DNA of 48,381 nucleotides from a virus. The stretch covers positions 1 to 48,381 of IMG/VR virus record IMGVR_UViG_3300048588_000108. One strand, given 5' to 3'. The notes under the pieces are model-generated. The model saw only the letters and a list, made by a program, of their open reading frames with translations, had not been told where the DNA came from and ran no database searches. Shown here one piece after another: positions 1 through 48,381 of this stretch. The first letter of the stretch is position 1, and the number at the start of each line of letters is the position of its first letter. A program made the translations under genes and the position numbers.

Positions 1-183
1 AATATCGACGCGTGTCGGATCCCGTTCGCCAGTGACGAGGATCGCGCGACAGCCACGCAGACCGCAACGGCCTACAGAGAGGGGCGCGACAGCCACGCAG
101 ACCGCAACGGCCTACAGAGAGGGGCGCGACAGCCACGCAGACCGCAACGCGTACGGCACATTCAGCGACGGCGAGAAGTCGTT
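1..183. repeat. Terminal redundancy, left copy
   Basis: Bases 1-183 correspond to 48239-48381 at the right end. The two copies agree except that the left copy has one more 40-bp tandem unit. This shows that the window is a circular or circularly permuted genome cut inside the methyltransferase gene. Because of the length difference, the ends do not overlap exactly. The unit genome is 48238 bp if the left allele is kept and 40 bp less if the right allele is kept. Confidence 0.95.
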
Positions 184-670
184 AGCGGGATTCGCGGAAC
201 GCAACGCGCTCGGGCGCTGGCCGTCGAACGTGCTCTTCGACGAAGGCGCCGCGGCGATGCTCGACACGATCGCGCCGAACGCGTCGCGATTCTTCTACAG
301 CGGCAAGGCGACGCGATCGGAGCGCGAAGAGGGGCTCGAAGGATTCCCGCGCAAGGATCCGGGCACGTTCGCGCAGGATGAGTGGTCGCGCGAACATATG
401 GGCGGCACGCCCGACGCGAAGCGCAAGCCCGTGGCCAATACTCACGCCACCATTAAGCCCGTCGATTTGATGCGCTGGCTCGTGCGCCTAGTCACGCGCC
501 CGGGTGGGCTCGTGCTCGATCCGTTCAATGGGTCGGGATCGACGGGCGTCGCGGCGATCCTTGAGGGCGCGCGCTATGTCGGCATTGAACGCGAGCCCGA
601 ATACTGCGCGATTTCACGCGCACGACTCACCCACGCCAGCGCGCAGGGGGATCTCTTCTTTGGAACGTGA
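2..670 (+). CDS. DNA methyltransferase, C-terminal part (continues from 47384-48381)
   Basis: This is the 3' half of a beta-class N4/N6 DNA methyltransferase whose 5' half lies at the right end of the window. The SAM-binding motif is clear near the C-terminus: LVLDPFNGSGSTGVAA followed by YVGIEREPEY. In this class the catalytic DPPY comes first, and it is present in the other half. The frame ending at 670 is the true gene frame from about base 150 onwards. Upstream, the third copy of the 40-bp repeat breaks continuity: read in the right-end frame, this allele would stop at 379-381 and lose the SAM motif. A GTG at 32 is in frame with the C-terminal part but is probably not a natural start. With the two-unit allele the whole protein is about 494 residues. 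Confidence 0.85.
   Translation: MSTRVGSRSPVTRIARQPRRPQRPTERGATATQTATAYREGRDSHADRNAYGTFSDGEKSLAGFAERNALGRWPSNVLFDEGAAAMLDTIAPNASRFFYSGKATRSEREEGLEGFPRKDPGTFAQDEWSREHMGGTPDAKRKPVANTHATIKPVDLMRWLVRLVTRPGGLVLDPFNGSGSTGVAAILEGARYVGIEREPEYCAISRARLTHASAQGDLFFGT
44..149 (+). repeat. 40-bp tandem repeat, 2.65 copies, inside methyltransferase gene
   Basis: The unit starts GCGCGACAGCCACGCAG and repeats at 44, 84 and 124 with an exact 40-bp period; the last copy is cut at 26 bases. The right end of the window has only 1.65 copies (48282-48347). Since 40 is not a multiple of 3, each gain or loss moves the reading frame of the gene that contains it. Confidence 0.95.
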
Positions 671-5520: not shown

Positions 5521-7565
5521 TAGCGAATCACCGCTCCGCAATGCGCCGCCGCCATACGAGCGATGAAGCGTTGCGCCGCGTCAATGTTGTCTGCGGTTAG
5601 GCCCCGCATCACTATGATCTGAGCAACAGAAGCAGGAGTAAAAAGAGAAACGACATTCGCTCTTGAAGCGCAAATGGTCAAACGATTTAGAGCGTTGGAG
5701 CCAGAAACAGGAGATCCCGTTGCGGTCGCCTCTGTACCGAGGCCGTCGCGAACTGCGATAGCGGTACCACTACCGCCACTAACACGGCGAGAGAACAAGG
5801 CAACCATCGTCCCCGCCTCTGGCGCATCCACGGCCGCATATGAGGCAAGATCGACCGTGCTTTCTACGAACGCGTTATTGCGCCGAATCATCACGAGGCC
5901 GAGGTTTTCCGCGCGCGACAAGGAAACCATACCATACGATGCGACAGGCAGGCCCGGCACAGTACCAATCCACGCGATCATCGTGTCAGCGGTGATCTGC
6001 GGTAGCTTCCCGAAATCCACATTGCGGAAGTAGTTATCCGTCCCGTTGAACACGGCCACGGGATAGACTCCGGTGTCATCATAAGATGGGTTGTTCGTTG
6101 CGGGACTCGCGACAAAAGAATAGCGCCGATCGCCAGAGGCAAGCACGAGATTCGCGGAGGGCGTAAGATCTCCCGCCGCACCAGCGGAGCCGCTGTTCGC
6201 ATAGGGAGTCGCGCCGCTGAAGTCATAGCCAAGCAGGAGATCGCTCGAACGAACGACATAGTCGCTCGCGAGCTCGGCGTCGATTTCGCCGTCAGTCAAT
6301 GCCGCTGACCAAACGCGAACGCTTTCGCCGTTGCCACCGATGATCCCGTTGAAAGCGCCGCCCGTGCTGTAGCTATACCGACCAATCGCGATTGGAGTCG
6401 TGGTAGCTGCAAGTGAGATCAGTGCCGCAGGAACGCCGGGAGTGACAACGCTACTCGTCAGAGCGGCCCCTGCCGTCCACGACTCTGTAACTGCGTCATA
6501 TGTCGAGCGTCGGAAGGTGACCCGAGTTGCGTCGGTTCCCGCCGCACCATCGAAGCGCATCGCCAATCGCGCGCGCACACCACCCGCCACACCCAACAGA
6601 CCGTCAACGCGAGAGATAGCCGCGCCGTTGCCGATGAAGGCGACTACACTCGTGCCGCCATTGTCGATTAGAGCCAACTGCGTTCCTGTCGGGCTAGAAC
6701 TTGAAGCGCGAGTTACATATGCCTGTCCCCCCGATGATCCGTTTTGTCTGCACAATTCTAGAACGATTGTCAGGCCCGCGAGCGCATCCATATCCGTCAG
6801 CCCAGATGCACCGACCAGACCCTCGCCCGACACGCCGCTCACATATACCTGACCGTCGTCCGTCTCTGCGCGGCTGTCATTCCACCCCTGCACAAAGCCA
6901 CCACTCACAATTGCCTTGCGCGCCATATCGTAGTGCGCTGAAACCGTGACGCCGATTGCTTCGAGGAACTCGACGGGCGCATTCTCTGGCTGGAAGAAAT
7001 CGATCCACTTGTCGAGGCCGTTCGATAGGTAGCTGATCGCCTCGACCGGATGCGATTCGGCCGCGTCCCGATCCGTGAGGCGCGAGTGCTCGACGGAATC
7101 GAACACCACCTCGCCGCTCTCGTTCGTCTGTAGGATCTGCCCTTCGGATCCCGGCACGATCGACAGCGGATCGACCGCGCCCCATTCGGGTTCGTCGCTC
7201 TCGTTCACGCGCAACACTTGCCCCGCGCTCCCCGCCGCGAGCTTCGTGACGTCGATCGCCGCGTCCGCCGCGATCTGATCGTTCGTAAGCCCAGTGATGC
7301 GAGCGAGTGGCACCGTGCCTGACGCCAGCGCGTCGGCTGCAAGGTTCGTCAGCCCGTCGCCGTCGCCGATGAACGCCTCGGCCGCGAGCACGATCGACGG
7401 CAGCGACAGCGTGCCGCCCGTGCCCGTGATCACGACGTCGCCCTCGGCGTCGACCGCGAAGTCGAGGTAGTTGTCTTCGTCGTAGCCGAGACGAAGTTGC
7501 GCGCCGTCCAAGATCGACGGGTCGCCATTGAACAGCTTGAGCGGACGGTCCAGAAAGTCAGTCAT
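5520..7565 (-). CDS. Tail fibre protein with LamG-like regions
   Basis: 681 residues. The N-terminus carries phage-fibre repeats (VVITGTGGTLSL, AEAFIGDGDGLTNLAADALASGTVPLARI, GQVLRVNESDEPEW, GQILQTNESGEVVF). The rest, from about 170, holds two probable concanavalin/LamG-like jelly-roll regions (for example GRYSYSTGGAFNGIIGGNGESVRVWSAALTDGEIDAELASDY), as expected for carbohydrate receptor binding. The C-terminal half is visibly poorer in GC and uses more A/T-ending codons than its neighbours, suggesting recent exchange of the receptor-binding part. It is the last structural gene before lysis. Confidence 0.8.
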   Translation of the reverse strand: MTDFLDRPLKLFNGDPSILDGAQLRLGYDEDNYLDFAVDAEGDVVITGTGGTLSLPSIVLAAEAFIGDGDGLTNLAADALASGTVPLARITGLTNDQIAADAAIDVTKLAAGSAGQVLRVNESDEPEWGAVDPLSIVPGSEGQILQTNESGEVVFDSVEHSRLTDRDAAESHPVEAISYLSNGLDKWIDFFQPENAPVEFLEAIGVTVSAHYDMARKAIVSGGFVQGWNDSRAETDDGQVYVSGVSGEGLVGASGLTDMDALAGLTIVLELCRQNGSSGGQAYVTRASSSSPTGTQLALIDNGGTSVVAFIGNGAAISRVDGLLGVAGGVRARLAMRFDGAAGTDATRVTFRRSTYDAVTESWTAGAALTSSVVTPGVPAALISLAATTTPIAIGRYSYSTGGAFNGIIGGNGESVRVWSAALTDGEIDAELASDYVVRSSDLLLGYDFSGATPYANSGSAGAAGDLTPSANLVLASGDRRYSFVASPATNNPSYDDTGVYPVAVFNGTDNYFRNVDFGKLPQITADTMIAWIGTVPGLPVASYGMVSLSRAENLGLVMIRRNNAFVESTVDLASYAAVDAPEAGTMVALFSRRVSGGSGTAIAVRDGLGTEATATGSPVSGSNALNRLTICASRANVVSLFTPASVAQIIVMRGLTADNIDAAQRFIARMAAAHCGAVIR

Positions 7566-27148: not shown

Positions 27149-28598
27149 GGCTCTGAGGCTCAAGGCTTGAGGGAACAGCGGGAGCGACGCCAATAAACGC
27201 CGCATCGGGGGCGCCCAACAGTTCACGCGTGCGGCCCGAGAACGACCGCACCCACGGCGTGAGGCGGTGTGCGTTCGCCGTCCACGCGCGGTAATGGCTG
27301 TCGGAGCCCTTCCACGCGACGGCCGCGTTGTGTACCGCGCTCTGGGCGAAGTGCGGGGTGCGCGTCATGGGCACGCCACACAGCACGGCGCGCTCGGCCT
27401 TGAGGTGATGCGCCACAGCGACCGCCAGCAAGCCCGACGCGCCGCCGCCCCATGGCGTGACGACGTGGGTAACTTGCTTCGACCGGGCGCCCTTGCGCGT
27501 CCATGTCGCACCGGCCGCGGGATGCCCGTTCGCGCGCCGCGCCTTGGTCCACGCGTCGATCTTCTCCGCATGCAGCGTCACCCAGTGATCGACCGCGAAC
27601 GGCAAGTGGCACCCGACGTCGTTCACCGCGATCACCAGTCCGCGCCACGGGCCGAACGTGCGATAGAGCTCGCCCAAGTCGTCCCACACGGAACCGCCGC
27701 CGCCGATGATAAGCGCAATCGACGGATCGACCGGCCCGGGCGCGCGGAAGTCGTCGGGGATCCGCGGAAGCGGGGGGCGTTCCACCGGCGCGCTTGGAAT
27801 TTCGTGATGGTTCCCGAGGTGCCGTTCGCGTGGGAGTGTCGGGCGCTGTGGGATCGGACGCCGCACGCGTGGGGGCGCTTGGCGCTGCACGACCCGCGCG
27901 GCGCCGGTGCCGTCGTGGTACGGCGCATTGGTGTAGAACGTGCTTCGCGTGTCGCGCAGTAAGACTTGTCGGTCGCGATGGAACACGATTTCGTATCCAT
28001 TGGCTAACGCCTTCGGGATTACGATCTCGCCTTTCACGGCCCACTGTGGCGCGGTCGCCTCGAGCGCTTTCCAGTTCGCGACGTGCTTCGCGTGGGCGCC
28101 GGTCGGGTCGCCGCCGGGCACGGCGTCGCCGGGGCCGAAGATGTCGTCAATGAGCACGAACAACGGGCGGCACGTGAGCGCGTCCCACATGCGGCCGTGT
28201 GTGACCGACTCCGACGGGCCGTCCAAGTACAACAAGTCGATCGCGTCGAACTGCCCGAGGTACTCTTCGGCGTTGCCGTGGATCAGACGGAAGTGCTTCC
28301 CCGCGGGGACAAGGCGCCGCGCGCATGAGATCGCCAGCGGGTCGGTGTCGATCGCGACCAGTTCGCCCCCGTGGTCCTGTGCATACCACGCCAACGCCTT
28401 GGTCGCGTGGCCGTCTTCGATCGTGCGGTGCCGCTTGCGCGACGTGCCGACTTCGCACAGCGTCACGGGCCGCGCGCTGGTGTGCAAGAACAGATGGGCC
28501 AGCGCTTCGACCAGCGTGTCGCGCCGTCCCGTTGGGGGCGCCGATTCGTGAATGCACGCGCGGACTGAGGCCAGCGCGTCGAAGCTAGGCGCCGTCAT
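27123..28598 (-). CDS. SAM-dependent methyltransferase fused to a MptE/DUF115-like domain
   Basis: 491 residues. The N-terminal domain has a class I methyltransferase pattern: CEVGTSRK (about 48-55), VAIDTDP (81-87), YLDGPSE (125-130) and LIDDI. After a Pro/Arg-rich linker (about 225-265), the C-terminal domain begins ALIIGGGGSVWDD and continues VIAVNDVGCHLPFAVDHWVTLHAEKIDAW and VTPWGGGASGLLAVAVAHHL, resembling DUF115/MptE-like glycan-associated proteins. It is coupled to the glycosyltransferase gene upstream by ATGA. I infer sugar or nucleotide-sugar modification; the target is unknown. Confidence 0.65.
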   Translation of the reverse strand: MTAPSFDALASVRACIHESAPPTGRRDTLVEALAHLFLHTSARPVTLCEVGTSRKRHRTIEDGHATKALAWYAQDHGGELVAIDTDPLAISCARRLVPAGKHFRLIHGNAEEYLGQFDAIDLLYLDGPSESVTHGRMWDALTCRPLFVLIDDIFGPGDAVPGGDPTGAHAKHVANWKALEATAPQWAVKGEIVIPKALANGYEIVFHRDRQVLLRDTRSTFYTNAPYHDGTGAARVVQRQAPPRVRRPIPQRPTLPRERHLGNHHEIPSAPVERPPLPRIPDDFRAPGPVDPSIALIIGGGGSVWDDLGELYRTFGPWRGLVIAVNDVGCHLPFAVDHWVTLHAEKIDAWTKARRANGHPAAGATWTRKGARSKQVTHVVTPWGGGASGLLAVAVAHHLKAERAVLCGVPMTRTPHFAQSAVHNAAVAWKGSDSHYRAWTANAHRLTPWVRSFSGRTRELLGAPDAAFIGVAPAVPSSLEPQSHDDTDPAF

Positions 28599-29347
28599 TC
28601 CGACACCGCCCACGCCAGCGCGCGCGCCGCGCGGTAGACCTTACGCCAGTCATGCCACCCGTCGACGCGGGCGAGCGGGGCGTTCGTGTGATTCGGCTTC
28701 ACGTAGTAGTCAGTCCACTTGAGAAGGTTACCGCGGTCGGACACCTTGCGACCCGACGAAGTATACACCGGCCCGGGCGATACACGGTCGCCGTCGGTGA
28801 ACAGCAACAACGGGCGCCCGCACAAGACGGCAAGGTGCGCCAGCCCTGAGCAGGGCGCGACCACGATCGCCGCTTTGTGCATGGCGGCGATCGTCGCGTC
28901 TAATGGCCGGTCGTAGTGCCACGCCGCGTCACAATCGAGGTCGGTGTCCGATGCGTCGGCAACGCCCCCCGCGAACACGTCGAACCCTGTCGACCGGAAC
29001 GCGTCGACGAGGGCCTGAAAGTGTGGCCAGTTCTTCGCGGGGACGTAATTGCGCTTCCGCGGCGCGATCACGATCGACGGGTTGCCGACGTCCTGCGCGA
29101 CGAACGGCACGGGCACGAAGCGCTCGGCGTGCTTCGTGAGCCCCGACAGCTTGGGGCGATGGTGACGGAACTTGTCGGCGGTCTCAGGCACGCGCGGGAT
29201 GATGTCCCACCGATCCGCCAGCGGATACAGCGCCTCTTCGCCCGCTTCGATCTCGATTGTGTGCCCGCGGCCCAACGCGTACACGTGCGGAACGTGGTGA
29301 AGGATCTTGAGCCCGAACTCGCCCGTATACGCGGGAATGTACGCCAC
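28595..29347 (-). CDS. Glycosyltransferase family 9-like protein
   Basis: 250 residues. The second half matches heptosyltransferase-type glycosyltransferases: APRKRNYVPAKNWPHFQALVDAFRSTGFDVFAGG, then ATIAAMHKAAIVVAPCSGLAHLAVLCGRPLLLFTDG, where the 'APCSGLAHLA' loop binds the sugar nucleotide. The N-terminal half is short, so the acceptor domain may be reduced. It sits in a group of transferase genes between terminase and portal. It may modify the virion or host surface sugars. Confidence 0.7.
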   Translation of the reverse strand: MAYIPAYTGEFGLKILHHVPHVYALGRGHTIEIEAGEEALYPLADRWDIIPRVPETADKFRHHRPKLSGLTKHAERFVPVPFVAQDVGNPSIVIAPRKRNYVPAKNWPHFQALVDAFRSTGFDVFAGGVADASDTDLDCDAAWHYDRPLDATIAAMHKAAIVVAPCSGLAHLAVLCGRPLLLFTDGDRVSPGPVYTSSGRKVSDRGNLLKWTDYYVKPNHTNAPLARVDGWHDWRKVYRAARALAWAVSE

Positions 29348-37751: not shown

Positions 37752-38837
37752 ATGAGTACGGCGGAAGCGACCGACCCGCGCCCGAATGGGGCGGACGGTC
37801 AAAGGCTCGTGACGGGCGCACGCACTGACGAGACGACGGAGCAGCGGCGCGTCCAGTGGTTAGCGGAGCGCAAGAAATACCTCACCGCGACGGATGCGGC
37901 GAAGGTGCTCGGGCTCTCGCCCTATGGCGATGCGGTCGACGTGTGGCTCGAAAAGACGGGCCGCGACGGAGCGGAGTTCGTCGAAACCGCCGAGATGCGC
38001 CGCGGCCGTCGCCGCGAGTCCATCGTCTTGGATCAGTACGAAGAGACGGAGCTCGTGACCCTCACGCGCCCGCTGCCGTACACGCTGGTCGCGTCGGAGA
38101 AGATCCCGCTCCTCGCATTCTCGCCCGACGCGCTGCGCGGGTCGCTGGGGTCGTCACTGATCCCGGTCGACGCGAAGACCGCGCGCTGGGCTGACCCAAC
38201 GATGTGGGGCGAAGACGGGTCGGACGAGTTCCCGATCCACTACGCGATACAGTTGCACGTGCAGATGATCGTGCTGGGCGCTGAGATCGCGCACTTGCCG
38301 ACGGAGTTCGGCGGCGACGAATACCGCTGCTATCACCTTGGGTCGACGCCGTCGCGGCGCGATGGATTGGTGGAGCTATTGGGCGCGTGGTGGCAGAAGC
38401 ACGTGGTCGAAGACACGCAACCCGCCCCGACCGGATCGAAGAGCTACGCGGACTATCTCAAGCGCGTGTATCCGCGCCACGATGCCGGGATCGCGGTCGA
38501 CGTCCGAGGCGATCCAGCGCTCGACGCCTTGGGGCCGCGCTTCGATTCGCTGCGCGATGCCGTCAAGGCGTTGGAAGCCGAGCGCGACGAAGTCGGCAAC
38601 CAGATCCGCAACGCGATGGGATCCGCGGAAGTGCTGCAGGGGTCGATCTGGGGCGCGACGTGGAAGAACAACAAAGACAGCGAAAAGCTGGACGCCGCGG
38701 GCGCGGTGCAGGACTTCCAACGCCTTGCCGCCGCGAACGGCTGGCTCGATGAGTGGCGCACGGTGGTACGGCAACGCACGACGAAACAGCGCGGAGCACG
38801 CACGCTACGCGTTACCCTCAAGTCAGGCAAGGCATAA
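37752..38837 (+). CDS. YqaJ-family exonuclease/recombinase
   Basis: 361 residues. The YqaJ/lambda-exonuclease fold is clear: LTATDAAKVLGLSPY (about 44-58), RGRRRESIVLDQYEE with E89, LAFSPDALRG with D126, VDAKTA with D140-x-K142, and YAIQLHVQM with Q167. It degrades one strand of DNA ends for recombination. TAGGAG precedes the ATG. The following annealing-type protein and SbcC-like ATPase complete a Red-like set. Confidence 0.88.
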   Translation: MSTAEATDPRPNGADGQRLVTGARTDETTEQRRVQWLAERKKYLTATDAAKVLGLSPYGDAVDVWLEKTGRDGAEFVETAEMRRGRRRESIVLDQYEETELVTLTRPLPYTLVASEKIPLLAFSPDALRGSLGSSLIPVDAKTARWADPTMWGEDGSDEFPIHYAIQLHVQMIVLGAEIAHLPTEFGGDEYRCYHLGSTPSRRDGLVELLGAWWQKHVVEDTQPAPTGSKSYADYLKRVYPRHDAGIAVDVRGDPALDALGPRFDSLRDAVKALEAERDEVGNQIRNAMGSAEVLQGSIWGATWKNNKDSEKLDAAGAVQDFQRLAAANGWLDEWRTVVRQRTTKQRGARTLRVTLKSGKA

Positions 38838-38840
38838 CCA

Positions 38841-40103
38841 ATGAGTACCTCGAATGCTCTGGCGCGGCAGGACGACGCGCATTCTCCGACCGGGCTCGCG
38901 CAATCCGCGGGCGTCGCACTGGCCCGCGGCGAAACGTCCGCCGCCAGCGTCGCGGCCCGCGCGAAGGCGGAAGTCGAAGCGCGCGCGCTGATCGCGATCG
39001 GACGGCCGCGCGACGTCGCGCTGTTCCGTATCAAGTTGCTGGAAGCGTGCAAGCGGTCGCGCTTCGCCGAATCGGCGCGCTACAGCAAGCCGGTGGGCAA
39101 GCAGAAGGTCGAAGGCTTTTCGATCCGCTTCGCCGAAGAGTGCGCGCGCAGCTATGGCAACCTCGACATCGCCGCGGTGATCGTGTACGAAGACGACTAC
39201 CGGCGCGTGTTCGATGTCGTCGCGACCGACGTTGAGGCAAACAATACGTACCGGTTCCCCGTGACGATCGAGAAGTCGGTCGAACGGTCGTCGACGAAGG
39301 ACGGCGACGAAGTGCTCGGCAAGCGCACGAACTCACAAGGGCGCCCGACGTACATCATTCGCGCGACCGAGGACGCGCTGCTGAACAAGCAAGCCGCGGC
39401 GATCTCGAAGGCGCGTCGCCAGCTGATCTTACAGCACATCCCGTCGGATATCACCGAAGAGGCGCTGGAACAGATCGCCGCGACGCTGGCGGCCGAAGAG
39501 CGAAGCGACCCCGCGGCGAAGCGCAAGCGCTTGGTCGATGCGTTCTACGCGCTGGGCGTGATGCCCGACCAGATCGCGGAGTTCTTGGGGCTGGCGAAGA
39601 TCGACGCGATGAACGCGGCGCAGATCCGTTTCATGGGCACGATCTACACGGGCCTACGCGACGGCGAGACGACGTGGGCGGAGATCATGGCCAGCACGAA
39701 GAGCGACGACGGCAAGACGACGACGGTCGCGACCGACACGCGCAGCGCTACGGCGCGCCTTGACGCGGCGATCGCGAAGCCCGCCCCCGCCGCGGCCCCA
39801 GTCGTGGTGTCCGATCCGCCGCCGATGGAAGCGCCGCGGCCGCTGGTCGAAGAGGCACCGGTGCGCGACGGCGCTGCGGAATCGGTCGCCGCACCAGAGC
39901 CCAAGGCCATGGACGACGTGGAGATCCGGATGCGCGAGAACGCGCGTGCGAAAATCTCGGAGTACTACGAACACAAGGCCAGCGGCGGACGGCTCAACGC
40001 GGACGAAGTGAAGATGTACAACAAGCTACGGCGCGCGTATCCCGACATCTTCGCGGAGATCACGGGCGCGACGGACACCGACGACGAGGGGGGGCAGTCG
40101 TGA
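38841..40103 (+). CDS. Putative single-strand annealing-type recombination protein
   Basis: 420 residues. The N-terminal 220 (RDVALFRIKLLEACKRSRFAESARYSKPVGKQKVEGFSIRFAEECARSYGNLDIAAVIVYEDDYRRVFDVVATDVEANNTYRFPVTIEKSVERSS) resembles annealing-type proteins by position and beta-rich pattern, followed by a helix (NKQAAAISKARRQLILQHIPSDITEEALEQI). A Pro/Ala-rich linker (about 310-350) ends in a charged C-terminus. It lies directly behind the YqaJ nuclease, the usual pairing. I cannot place it in RecT, Erf or Sak from memory. Confidence 0.6.
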   Translation: MSTSNALARQDDAHSPTGLAQSAGVALARGETSAASVAARAKAEVEARALIAIGRPRDVALFRIKLLEACKRSRFAESARYSKPVGKQKVEGFSIRFAEECARSYGNLDIAAVIVYEDDYRRVFDVVATDVEANNTYRFPVTIEKSVERSSTKDGDEVLGKRTNSQGRPTYIIRATEDALLNKQAAAISKARRQLILQHIPSDITEEALEQIAATLAAEERSDPAAKRKRLVDAFYALGVMPDQIAEFLGLAKIDAMNAAQIRFMGTIYTGLRDGETTWAEIMASTKSDDGKTTTVATDTRSATARLDAAIAKPAPAAAPVVVSDPPPMEAPRPLVEEAPVRDGAAESVAAPEPKAMDDVEIRMRENARAKISEYYEHKASGGRLNADEVKMYNKLRRAYPDIFAEITGATDTDDEGGQS

Positions 40104-41410
40104 AGATCATCGAACTACGCGCCGAGAACTTCAAGCGACTAAGCGCGGTCGCCATCCGTCCCGACGCATCGGGGGCGCTGGTGGAGATCACCGGCGCCAA
40201 CGGCGAAGGCAAGTCGTCGGTGCTGGACGCAATCCTCTTCGCGCTGGCGGGCGCGAAGGGCGCGCCGGTCGATCCGATCCGACACGGCGCTGACAAGACC
40301 GAGGTCGAATTGGACCTCGGGGATCTCAAGGTCCGCAAGGTGCAGACCGAGAAGGGTACGACGCTGACGGTAACCAACGCCGACGGCGCGAAGTACCCGA
40401 AGGCGCAAGCGATGTTAGACGCCCTGCTCGGGGATCTGACGTTCGACCCGTTGGCGTTCGTCACGATGCCGCCCAAGCAACGCCTCGAAGTGCTGCGCGG
40501 GATCGTCACGCTGGACGTCGACCTCGACGCGATCGACCGCGCGATCGCCAGCGACTACGCGGAACGAACCGCGGTCGGGCGCATGGCGGACGAAGCGCGC
40601 GCGAAGGTGGCCGCGTTGGGTGAGCCGGTGCAAGGCGCGCCCTACGTCGACGAACAGCCGATCCTCGGCGAAGTGGCCGCGCTCAAGTCGCGGCGCGACG
40701 TGCTGGCGGATCGTCAGTCCAACGTCACGGCGCTTCGTTTGGAAGTCGCCAACGAACAGAATCAGGCGGCCGCGTGTGAACAACACATCGCGTTGCTGCG
40801 CGCGCAGATCGCGGAAATTGAGAAGCGCCGCGACCAGCACATCGCGCAAGCGACGGCGAAGGCCGCCGAGGCCAGCGTCGCCGTTGACGTGACCGAAGTC
40901 GACGCGGTGAAGGCCGCGCTCGTCGACGCCGAAACACGGCTGACTGTGGCGCGCGAAGCGAACGCGGCCGCACGGCAAGCGCACGGCGCGCTCGAAAAGT
41001 TCAACGCCGCGCACGCCGAGGCTGACAAGTACGCCGCGATGTACGAACGGCTCACCGACCGGATCGACACGGCGCGGAAGATGAAGGTCGAAGCGCTGGA
41101 GCGCGCGGTCTTCCCCGTGCCCGGGCTGTCGTTCGGTGATGGTGACGTATCGCTCGACGCCGTGCCGTTCTCACAGGCCAGCACGGCGCAACAGATCCTC
41201 GCCAGCTTCGCGATTGCGTGCGCCATGAATCCCAAGCTCAAGATCGTGCTCGTTCGGCATGGGTCGTTGTTGGACGATCGGTCGTTAGTGCAGTTGTCGC
41301 ACGCCGCGCACGACGCGGGTTATCAGGTGTGGATCGAACGCGTCGACACGACGGGGCGCGTTGGGTTCGTGATCGAAGACGGTACCGTCATCGCCGCCCC
41401 CTCACTCTAG
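40100..41410 (+). CDS. SbcC/RecF-like AAA ATPase with coiled coil
   Basis: 436 residues, starting at a GTG in a GTGA overlap. The N-terminus is an SMC/RecF head (MKIIELRAENFKRLSAVAI... TGANGEGKSSVLDAI, Walker A 32-39). Residues about 190-330 form a long coiled coil. The C-terminal head carries VSLDAVPFSQASTAQQILASFAIACAMNPKLKIVLVRHGSLLDD, where the signature and Walker B would be, though the canonical Asp-Glu pair of Walker B is replaced. It probably handles DNA ends with the nuclease and annealing protein. Confidence 0.8.
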   Translation: MKIIELRAENFKRLSAVAIRPDASGALVEITGANGEGKSSVLDAILFALAGAKGAPVDPIRHGADKTEVELDLGDLKVRKVQTEKGTTLTVTNADGAKYPKAQAMLDALLGDLTFDPLAFVTMPPKQRLEVLRGIVTLDVDLDAIDRAIASDYAERTAVGRMADEARAKVAALGEPVQGAPYVDEQPILGEVAALKSRRDVLADRQSNVTALRLEVANEQNQAAACEQHIALLRAQIAEIEKRRDQHIAQATAKAAEASVAVDVTEVDAVKAALVDAETRLTVAREANAAARQAHGALEKFNAAHAEADKYAAMYERLTDRIDTARKMKVEALERAVFPVPGLSFGDGDVSLDAVPFSQASTAQQILASFAIACAMNPKLKIVLVRHGSLLDDRSLVQLSHAAHDAGYQVWIERVDTTGRVGFVIEDGTVIAAPSL

Positions 41411-45077: not shown

Positions 45078-45253
45078 ACGGCGAATCATGTGAGTCGTGC
45101 AAGTTCTTCGCGCGGTGGAATCAAAGCCGCGAAGACGGAACTTGCTACCGATACCCGCCGGGGAACGGAATCACCAAGCGGCCCAAGGTGAGCACCGAAG
45201 AATGGTGCGGTGAGTATCAGCCGATGCCGCCGATTGCTGAGGACAAAAACTAA
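45074..45253 (+). CDS. Small Cys-rich zinc protein
   Basis: 59 residues. ESCESCKFFARWNQSREDGTCYRYPPGNGI...EEWCGEYQPM gives CxxC...C...C. It is like the 109-residue protein at 2158. It starts inside the previous gene's stop. Confidence 0.7.
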   Translation: MNGESCESCKFFARWNQSREDGTCYRYPPGNGITKRPKVSTEEWCGEYQPMPPIAEDKN

Positions 45254-45966
45254 TGGCCACGAAGACCGGTATCGAATGGACGGACCGCACATGGAACCCG
45301 TGGCACGGCTGCACGCATGTCTCGGCCGGGTGCGACAACTGCTACATGTTCACCGAAAAGCGACGCTATGGGCAGGATCCCGAGCAGGTCGTGCGGTCCA
45401 AGACGACGTTCAACGCGCCGCTAAAGTGGGGCGCTGAACCCGCGCGCGTGTTCACGTGTTCGTGGAGCGACTGGTTCCACGTCGACGCTGATCCGTGGCG
45501 TGACGAAGCGTGGGACATTATCCGACGCACACCGCATCTCACGTATCAGATCTTGACCAAGCGCACGGGCCGCATTGCGCGGCATCTTCCCGCCGACTGG
45601 GGCGACGGTTACCCAAACGTGTGGCTCGGGACGAGCGTAGAGTCGCAAGATCAGGTGTTCCGTGCGCGGCAACTTTCGGCCGTGCCAGCCGCGCAGCGCT
45701 TTCTATCCTGCGAACCGCTGATTGGCGCCGTTGACTTGCGCGATGCGCTGAACGGCATCGCGTGGGTGATCGTTGGCGGTGAGAGTGGCCCGAATCACAG
45801 AATGATGAAACCAGAGTGGGCGCGCGCTATTCGTGATGCGTGCGCGACAAGTGGAGTCGCATTCTTTTTCAAGCAATGGGGCGGCCCGAGAGGACACAAG
45901 CGCGGCGGTGAAGATGCGCTGCTCGACGGCGTGCGACACGTGCACTTCCCAGCAGAGGGCAGCTAA
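45253..45966 (+). CDS. DUF5131 / Gp37-Gp68 family protein
   Basis: 237 residues. WNPWHGCTHVSAGCDNCYM gives C20-x6-C27-x2-C30, then FTCSWSDWFH, ILTKRTGRIARHLP, LGTSVESQDQVFRARQL, FLSCEPLIGAVDL and WVIVGGESGPNHRMM, all standard for this family. It resembles radical SAM enzymes; the substrate is not known. Some members are paired with TcmP (three-Cys-motif partner), which I do not see here. Coupled to both neighbours. Confidence 0.85.
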   Translation: MATKTGIEWTDRTWNPWHGCTHVSAGCDNCYMFTEKRRYGQDPEQVVRSKTTFNAPLKWGAEPARVFTCSWSDWFHVDADPWRDEAWDIIRRTPHLTYQILTKRTGRIARHLPADWGDGYPNVWLGTSVESQDQVFRARQLSAVPAAQRFLSCEPLIGAVDLRDALNGIAWVIVGGESGPNHRMMKPEWARAIRDACATSGVAFFFKQWGGPRGHKRGGEDALLDGVRHVHFPAEGS

Positions 45967-46953: not shown

Positions 46954-47387
46954 TGCCGTCGCCAAAGCGAAAAGAGGCGGTCGTCATTGACGGCGGGGGC
47001 TACTCAGGCCACTACATCCGACTGCTACAAGAGGCCGCGAACGAACTCGCCGAACGTGACGCGGTGGCCGCGAAGATCGAGAAGACGCGCGGCGGCCGCA
47101 AGCCGTTTACGCTGCGCGTCGATCGCGGACACTTGTCGACGACCAGCCTAACGGATCTTGCGTTCGCCGCGCTGCCCGCGACGCGCGCCGACGCGAAGAC
47201 GATCGGGGCAATTGCCGAGGAGATCGGACGCGATCGCCGCACGACATCCCGAGCGCTGGTCGATCTGCTCAAGAAGACGAAGCACGTCGCGCGCGATTGG
47301 CGTGCGTTCACCGGCGACGATCGCCGCGGCAAACTCCCCGCGGGCTGGCATTGGTGGCGTGTCGTCGACGACGAGGCCCACTCGTGA
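46953..47387 (+). CDS. HTH-like hypothetical protein
   Basis: 144 residues. The C-terminal half (LTDLAFAALPATRADAKTIGAIAEEIGRDRRTTSRALVDLLKKTKHVARDWRAF) resembles a winged helix: 'IA.EIGRDRRTTSRALVDLLK'. It overlaps the methyltransferase start by four bases. A DNA-binding role is inferred. Confidence 0.6.
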   Translation: MPSPKRKEAVVIDGGGYSGHYIRLLQEAANELAERDAVAAKIEKTRGGRKPFTLRVDRGHLSTTSLTDLAFAALPATRADAKTIGAIAEEIGRDRRTTSRALVDLLKKTKHVARDWRAFTGDDRRGKLPAGWHWWRVVDDEAHS

Positions 47388-48381
47388 GCGGCGCCCGCTG
47401 GGAGATCATCCACGCCGACTGCCGCGACGCTATGCGCGCCATGGACGCGGACAGCGTCGACAGCATCGTGAGCGATCCGCCGTACGGGCTCAGTTTCATG
47501 GGCAAGGAATGGGACCACGGCGTGCCGTCGGTCGAGTTCTGGCTCGAAGCGTACCGCGTCGCGAAGCCCGGCGCGTATCTACTGGCGTTCGGCGGGTCGC
47601 GCACCTATCACCGCTTGACGTGCGCGATCGAAGATGCGGGCTTCGAGATCCGCGACTGTTTGCAATGGCTCTATGCCTCGGGATTTCCCAAGTCGCTGGA
47701 CGTGTCAAAGGCGATCGACAAATTGGACGCGGCCGAGAAGCGATTGCAGCGCGCGTTCGCGTTTACGGCGTGGGTGCGATCGACGGGCGTCACCGCGGCG
47801 GAGATCGACCGCGCGACGAACACCGCGATGGGCAACCACTACACGACGCACCCGACACAGCCCGCGATCGCGACGCGCGAACTCTTCGAGCAGATCCGCC
47901 CGCTACTCAACGGCGCGCCCGTCCCCGATTGGGTCGAAGCGCTGATCGATAATCGGGTCGTTGAGTCGGACAACTTCCGCGCGCGCGAAGTCGTCGCCGT
48001 GGTCGAGATGGCGGACAGTTCGAAGGGCCGCCTTGGGTTCAACGGCCCGACGCACGCGCCAGAGTACAACGGGGAGCGGCGCGACGTCGCCATCACCACG
48101 GCCCACACGGCTGAGGCGCAAGCGTGGGAAGGATGGGGCACCGCACTGAAGCCCGCCTTCGAGCCGATCATCGTCGCGCGGAAACCGCTGCGCGGGACCG
48201 TCGCGGCGAATGTCGTCGCGTTCGGGACGGGCGCGATTAATATCGACGCGTGTCGGATCCCGTTCGCCAGTGACGAGGATCGCGCGACAGCCACGCAGAC
48301 CGCAACGGCCTACAGAGAGGGGCGCGACAGCCACGCAGACCGCAACGCGTACGGCACATTCAGCGACGGCGAGAAGTCGTT
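47384..48381 (+). CDS. DNA methyltransferase, N-terminal part (continues at window start)
   Basis: 332 residues here, starting at GTG 47384 (overlap with the previous stop). Catalytic motif IV is SDPPYGLSFMGKEWDH (about 35-50). The middle (about 120-270) is an additional region that may hold target recognition. The frame runs to the end of the window through the two-unit repeat RATATQTATAYREG-RDSHADRN and joins the C-terminal frame at the window start. Stand-alone methyltransferases of this class usually protect phage DNA from restriction; no matching endonuclease is present. Confidence 0.9.
   Translation, partial: MSGARWEIIHADCRDAMRAMDADSVDSIVSDPPYGLSFMGKEWDHGVPSVEFWLEAYRVAKPGAYLLAFGGSRTYHRLTCAIEDAGFEIRDCLQWLYASGFPKSLDVSKAIDKLDAAEKRLQRAFAFTAWVRSTGVTAAEIDRATNTAMGNHYTTHPTQPAIATRELFEQIRPLLNGAPVPDWVEALIDNRVVESDNFRAREVVAVVEMADSSKGRLGFNGPTHAPEYNGERRDVAITTAHTAEAQAWEGWGTALKPAFEPIIVARKPLRGTVAANVVAFGTGAINIDACRIPFASDEDRATATQTATAYREGRDSHADRNAYGTFSDGEKS
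48239..48381. repeat. Terminal redundancy, right copy
   Basis: Matches bases 1-183 with one 40-bp unit fewer. This copy reads through in the methyltransferase frame. Confidence 0.95.
48282..48347 (+). repeat. 40-bp tandem repeat, 1.65 copies
   Basis: The same unit as at 44-149, with one full unit (48282-48321) and 26 bases of a second. In this number of copies the methyltransferase frame is open. Confidence 0.95.

Follow-up and report, generated by a model that had tools for sequence, protein, structure and literature searches.

The window, by which we mean the whole stretch of DNA analysed here, is an IMG/VR virus record of 48,381 bases. Its two ends carry copies of one and the same locus, a tandem array of a 40-bp unit that lies inside a DNA methyltransferase gene, and the gene itself is split between the end and the start of the record. 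The features of the locus are as follows.

1..183: left-end copy of the overlapping locus, made of 43 b of upstream flank, 106 b of array and 34 b of downstream flank
44..149, plus strand: 2.65-copy array of the 40-bp unit GCGCGACAGCCACGCAGACCGCAACGGCCTACAGAGAGGG, the left-end allele (TRF, exact search)
184..670, plus strand: 3' part of the methyltransferase gene in the 1.65-copy frame, with the SAM-binding motif I DPFNGSGSTG at about 518-547 and the stop codon at 668-670
379..381, plus strand: TGA that terminates the 2.65-copy frame
47384..48381, plus strand: 5' part of the methyltransferase gene, with a GTG start and the catalytic DPPY (motif IV) at 47474-47485 (translation, Pfam PF01555)
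48239..48381: right-end copy of the overlapping locus, shorter by one 40-bp unit, with flanks identical to those of the left end
48282..48347, plus strand: 1.65-copy array of the same unit, the right-end allele (exact search)

With TRF, the array at 44-149 was recovered with a period of 40, 2.7 copies, 100% matches and a score of 212; the next best tandem array scores 66, and no other long tandem repeat is present in the window. Exact copies of the unit's first 26 bases lie at positions 44, 84, 124, 48282 and 48322, and we did not detect any further site in the window, on either strand and with up to 6 mismatches. When the two ends were compared, 1-183 and 48239-48381 were identical except for one 40-bp unit, with a common prefix of 109 b and a common suffix of 100 b. 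This confirms the first-pass annotation, which had described the ends as one locus holding 2.65 copies at the left and 1.65 copies at the right. The array, a perfect repeat with a tandem match of 66 b, is non-random: no match in first-order Markov surrogates of the window exceeds 14 b. Strand folding did not reveal a slippage-promoting hairpin (z from 0.0 to 2.0, with a stability not above that of shuffled sequences), and Rfam and tRNA scans were empty.

If the ends are joined with 1.65 copies, an intact frame of 494 aa begins with the GTG at 47384 and finishes at the stop codon 668-670. An array of 2.65 copies brings the stop at 379-381 into frame after 411 aa, upstream of the SAM-binding motif I, and the motif is lost. 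The 40-bp unit is not divisible by three; arrays of 1.65, 4.65 and 7.65 copies leave the frame open, and other numbers close it: 0.65 copies give a stopped product of 319 aa, 3.65 copies one of 359 aa, and 4.65 copies an intact protein of 534 aa. The effect on the frame that had been claimed earlier, with 1.65 copies reading to the SAM motif and 2.65 copies stopping before it, was thus reproduced by translation. The joined 1.65-copy protein matches Pfam PF01555 (N6_N4_Mtase, E 3.9e-29, 102.6 bits against a curated cut-off of 26.7) and PHROG 67 (E 2.6e-69), and the structurally solved relatives that it matches are CcrM, DpnA, RsrI and PvuII. Motif IV precedes motif I (DPPY at residue 31, DPFNGSGSTG near residue 445), and the alignment with CcrM has the same order. 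The product of the 1.65-copy form is accordingly a phage beta-class N6/N4 DNA methyltransferase. Among annotated phage proteins, its closest relatives are mycobacteriophage DNA methylases, for instance those of Quico, Bircsak and Museum, with identities of about 40-42% across 93-94% of its length; they belong to the same PF01555/PHROG 67 family, with the motif order IV to I and a similar length. A few genes upstream, at 45253-45966, we also observed a DUF5131 gene (PF07505, full-length match, E 1.2e-74).

The array lies in the linker between the motifs TG(A/G)(I/L)N and GRWP, and this linker was collected from 57 relatives. The first-pass annotation had suggested comparing relatives for repeat number, and the comparison went against a switch: a 40-bp-type array or comparable repeat was found in 0/57 linkers, all of them in frame there, in an extraction that requires both motifs in one frame and would miss relatives broken inside the linker. 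In a wider motif scan of the same loci, the upstream and downstream methyltransferase motifs share one frame wherever both were found. Only the relative L031 has a 16-b match, at period 18, in its linker. The relatives' linkers span 12-89 aa around a middle value of about 48 aa and have no such direct repeat, whereas the linker of the window phage, longer than most, counts 61 aa before GRWP, with the repeat inside. The linker is hypervariable and tolerates changes in length, and the relatives keep the frame through it. Tandem repeats at other places in the methyltransferase gene do occur in three relatives, each with a period divisible by three and the frame kept:

L039:4546-4579, tandem repeat in the relative's methyltransferase gene, period 9
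L061:4916-4975, tandem repeat in the relative's methyltransferase gene, period 24
L076:4560-4589, tandem repeat in the relative's methyltransferase gene, period 9

The gene family thus changes in length with its frame kept, and frame switching is not one of its traits. Over the roughly 1.1 Mb of fetched loci, periods divisible by three were found in 13 of the 17 tandem arrays. Among the fetched loci, L179:5240-5289 and L075:4412-4451 hold repeats with periods of 22 and 11, not divisible by three, in stop-free frames of 376 and 281 codons, respectively.

We also looked for other records of the phage. Exact searches of IMG/VR and GTDB returned no other contig with the 40-bp unit, the downstream flank was not found in other IMG/VR contigs, and two neighbouring proteins used as bait gave no further contigs of the window phage, in searches that may leave out records very near the window. 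By means of the RecF/SMC-like ATPase, the same phage was found in a second sample, as IMGVR_UViG_3300048837_000363 (35,704 b; L163 / L164 / L165). This record differs from window positions 6010-41713 by 4 SNPs (27805, 34148, 34233 and 41700), with no indels, and it ends at 6010 and 41713, short of the repeat locus. The repeat number is thus read in one record only, with two numbers within that record.

The contig ends are not physical genome ends, because the methyltransferase gene is continuous across them. A linear genome bounded here by short direct terminal repeats would account for the 109 and 100 exact bases shared between the ends, but the gene that runs across the junction would be cut and the end copies differ by 40 bp. 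Terminal repeats left by concatemer processing are identical. This candidate was rejected, and we regard it as hardly credible. In contigs from circular templates, the two ends often share an exact repeat whose length is k (CheckV, PMC8116208, Extended Data Fig. 3). As in the direct-terminal-repeat contigs of CheckV, both ends of the window carry the same locus; however, the repeats of those contigs are identical and often equal to k, whereas the end copies of the window differ by one unit. The start and end of the window have no exact direct terminal repeat of at least 20 bp, the criterion for a circular contig, and no exact suffix-prefix overlap of at least 10 b. There is no exact terminal repeat of length k, so the circle was left unclosed for a reason.

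To examine the part played by assembly we determined, for each assumed true repeat number, the largest k at which every k-mer of each end occurs in the genome. A genome with 1.65 copies supports both ends only to k = 27, and a genome with at least 2.65 copies only to k = 67; beyond k = 67, the k-mers of both ends cannot all come from a genome with one repeat number. An assembly at k above 67 therefore means that both alleles were present in the reads. At k of 67 or less, the 1.65-copy path can be a walk of the assembler, and a genome with at least 2.65 copies alone suffices. The k-mer result by itself gives no choice between a real polymorphism and an artefact, as it depends on the assembler's k. 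By our own reasoning, the 43 b before the array at the left and the 34 b after it at the right bear more resemblance to read-limited dead ends than to the vertices of a simple loop.

The explanation that we favour, and to which we give about an even chance, is a slippage indel polymorphism with a functional 1.65-copy allele and a loss-of-function 2.65-copy allele, where the circle was left open by the assembler. The only long tandem array of the window, perfect and non-random, sits at the unclosed ends; the 1.65-copy form reads through every motif without a stop and has matches to PF01555, PHROG 67, CcrM, DpnA and RsrI; no single repeat number yields both ends above k = 67; close strains exist, as indicated by the 4 SNPs over 35.7 kb in another sample; and the linker of the relatives varies widely in length with the frame kept. 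Taken together, these observations suggest that both alleles came from real molecules, that slippage was the mechanism and that the 2.65-copy form is a loss of function and not a regulated state. On the other hand, a genome with at least 2.65 copies is enough for both ends if k does not exceed 67, the minor allele could arise by PCR slippage during library preparation, and no second record reaching the locus was found in the IMG/VR and GTDB searches. An artefact, which the first-pass annotation had named as the plain alternative in the form of an assembly error at a circular junction, is quite possible, although short of probable: the phage would have one repeat number, and either a loop was walked differently at each end with k of 67 or less or the library polymerase slipped. 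The true array could then exceed what is seen at either end, and 4.65 copies would also be in frame, with an open gene of 534 aa. Assemblers fail at contig ends, so a repeat found there is selected by the method. However, both ends pass beyond the array into unique sequence (43 b at one and 34 b at the other), and by our reasoning the overhangs do not coincide with the vertices of a simple-loop graph. Above k = 27 a genome with 1.65 copies cannot give the 2.65-copy end by itself, and a walk with 1.65 copies would have restored the gene by chance (1 in 3).

The first-pass annotation had gone further and read the array as phase variation that would let part of the progeny leave its DNA unmodified. 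In this reading the array would be an evolved and reversible on/off switch, and part of the progeny would leave unmodified or unprotected. The two copy numbers and their effect on the frame stand; the step from there to a switch has no further support, in view of the relatives without the array and the minimal copy number, and we consider it improbable. In its favour, the unit is not a multiple of three and sits within the reading frame, before motif I, and one record contains two repeat numbers with opposite effects. Against it, the relatives' linkers are free of the array and in frame, the repeats at other places in the gene of L039, L061 and L076 all have periods divisible by three, no slippage-promoting hairpin was found, the repeat number is known from a single record, and a long unit in only 1.65-2.65 copies is expected to switch at a low rate. 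The tracts of bacterial phasevarions are built from many copies of a short unit, and the copy number that makes a repeat hypermutable varies with unit length. With its 1.65-2.65 copies the array is a long way from a typical hypermutable tract, though the repeat is far beyond chance. Repeat-mediated switching as such is known both in bacterial methyltransferases (PMC13076061) and in phages (PMC11868660). In bacterial mod genes a change in repeat number switches the methyltransferase, and on/off variants have been tested (PMC13076061); in these phasevarions, as here, the frame is set by a coding tandem repeat with a unit length not divisible by three. In Campylobacter phages, a receptor-binding protein is phase-varied by poly-G tracts, with plaque phenotypes (Sorensen et al. 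2021, cited in PMC11868660), which is likewise a change of repeat length in a phage gene. The window phage differs from the former, which are bacterial and whose switching has been tested, and from the latter, with its poly-G tract, receptor-binding protein and plaque phenotypes, in having a single long unit of 40 bp, in 1.65 or 2.65 copies, in a phage methyltransferase gene. The frame switch exists on paper only, and the locus shares the frame logic of such systems, with neither many copies nor conservation in relatives.

For the slippage polymorphism, we propose the following course of events. A tailed phage, circularly permuted or circularising, would encode an ordinary orphan-type beta-class N6/N4 DNA methyltransferase, whose functional gene would be the 1.65-copy allele, with a 26-bp direct repeat 40 bp apart in the variable linker. 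Slippage or recombination between the repeats would add one unit and produce a second, 2.65-copy allele, frameshifted and lacking the SAM-binding motif. The sampled population would have held both alleles, and the read paths would have disagreed, ending the contig with one allele at each end. Removal of 42 bp (the unit plus GC) from the 1.65-copy allele gives DEDRDSHADRNAYGTF, with a 47-aa linker, near the usual length in relatives; the linkers of two mycobacteriophages read DEDR, seven residues, NAIYG. It is plausible that the 1.65-copy allele arose by a 42-bp in-frame insertion, in a linker too variable for proof. An in-frame insertion of 14 codons carrying the 26-bp repeat, followed by one 40-bp slip, would give both alleles with no need for selection for switching.

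Were the array nonetheless a switch, gain or loss of 40 bp would turn the methyltransferase on and off, and the population would mix self-methylating and non-methylating phages as a hedge against hosts that differ in restriction or in methyl-dependent defences, a role that strikes us as unlikely. A switch that proved real and reversible would add DNA modification to receptor binding among the phage functions under repeat-mediated phase variation. The locus also calls for caution in the reading of viral contigs: a circular phage genome can look linear when two short-tandem-repeat alleles block its closure, and a frameshifted allele at a contig end can give the false impression that an intact gene is broken.

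Elsewhere in the window, a YqaJ-type recombinase gene (PF09588), a gene without a Pfam match and the RecF/SMC-like ATPase gene (AAA_23) occupy 37752-41410, and the sole IMG/VR relative found for this ATPase is from the same phage. A glycosyltransferase family 9 match (PF01075, E 4.9e-06) was observed at 28595-29347, in a minus-strand block between the portal and terminase genes.
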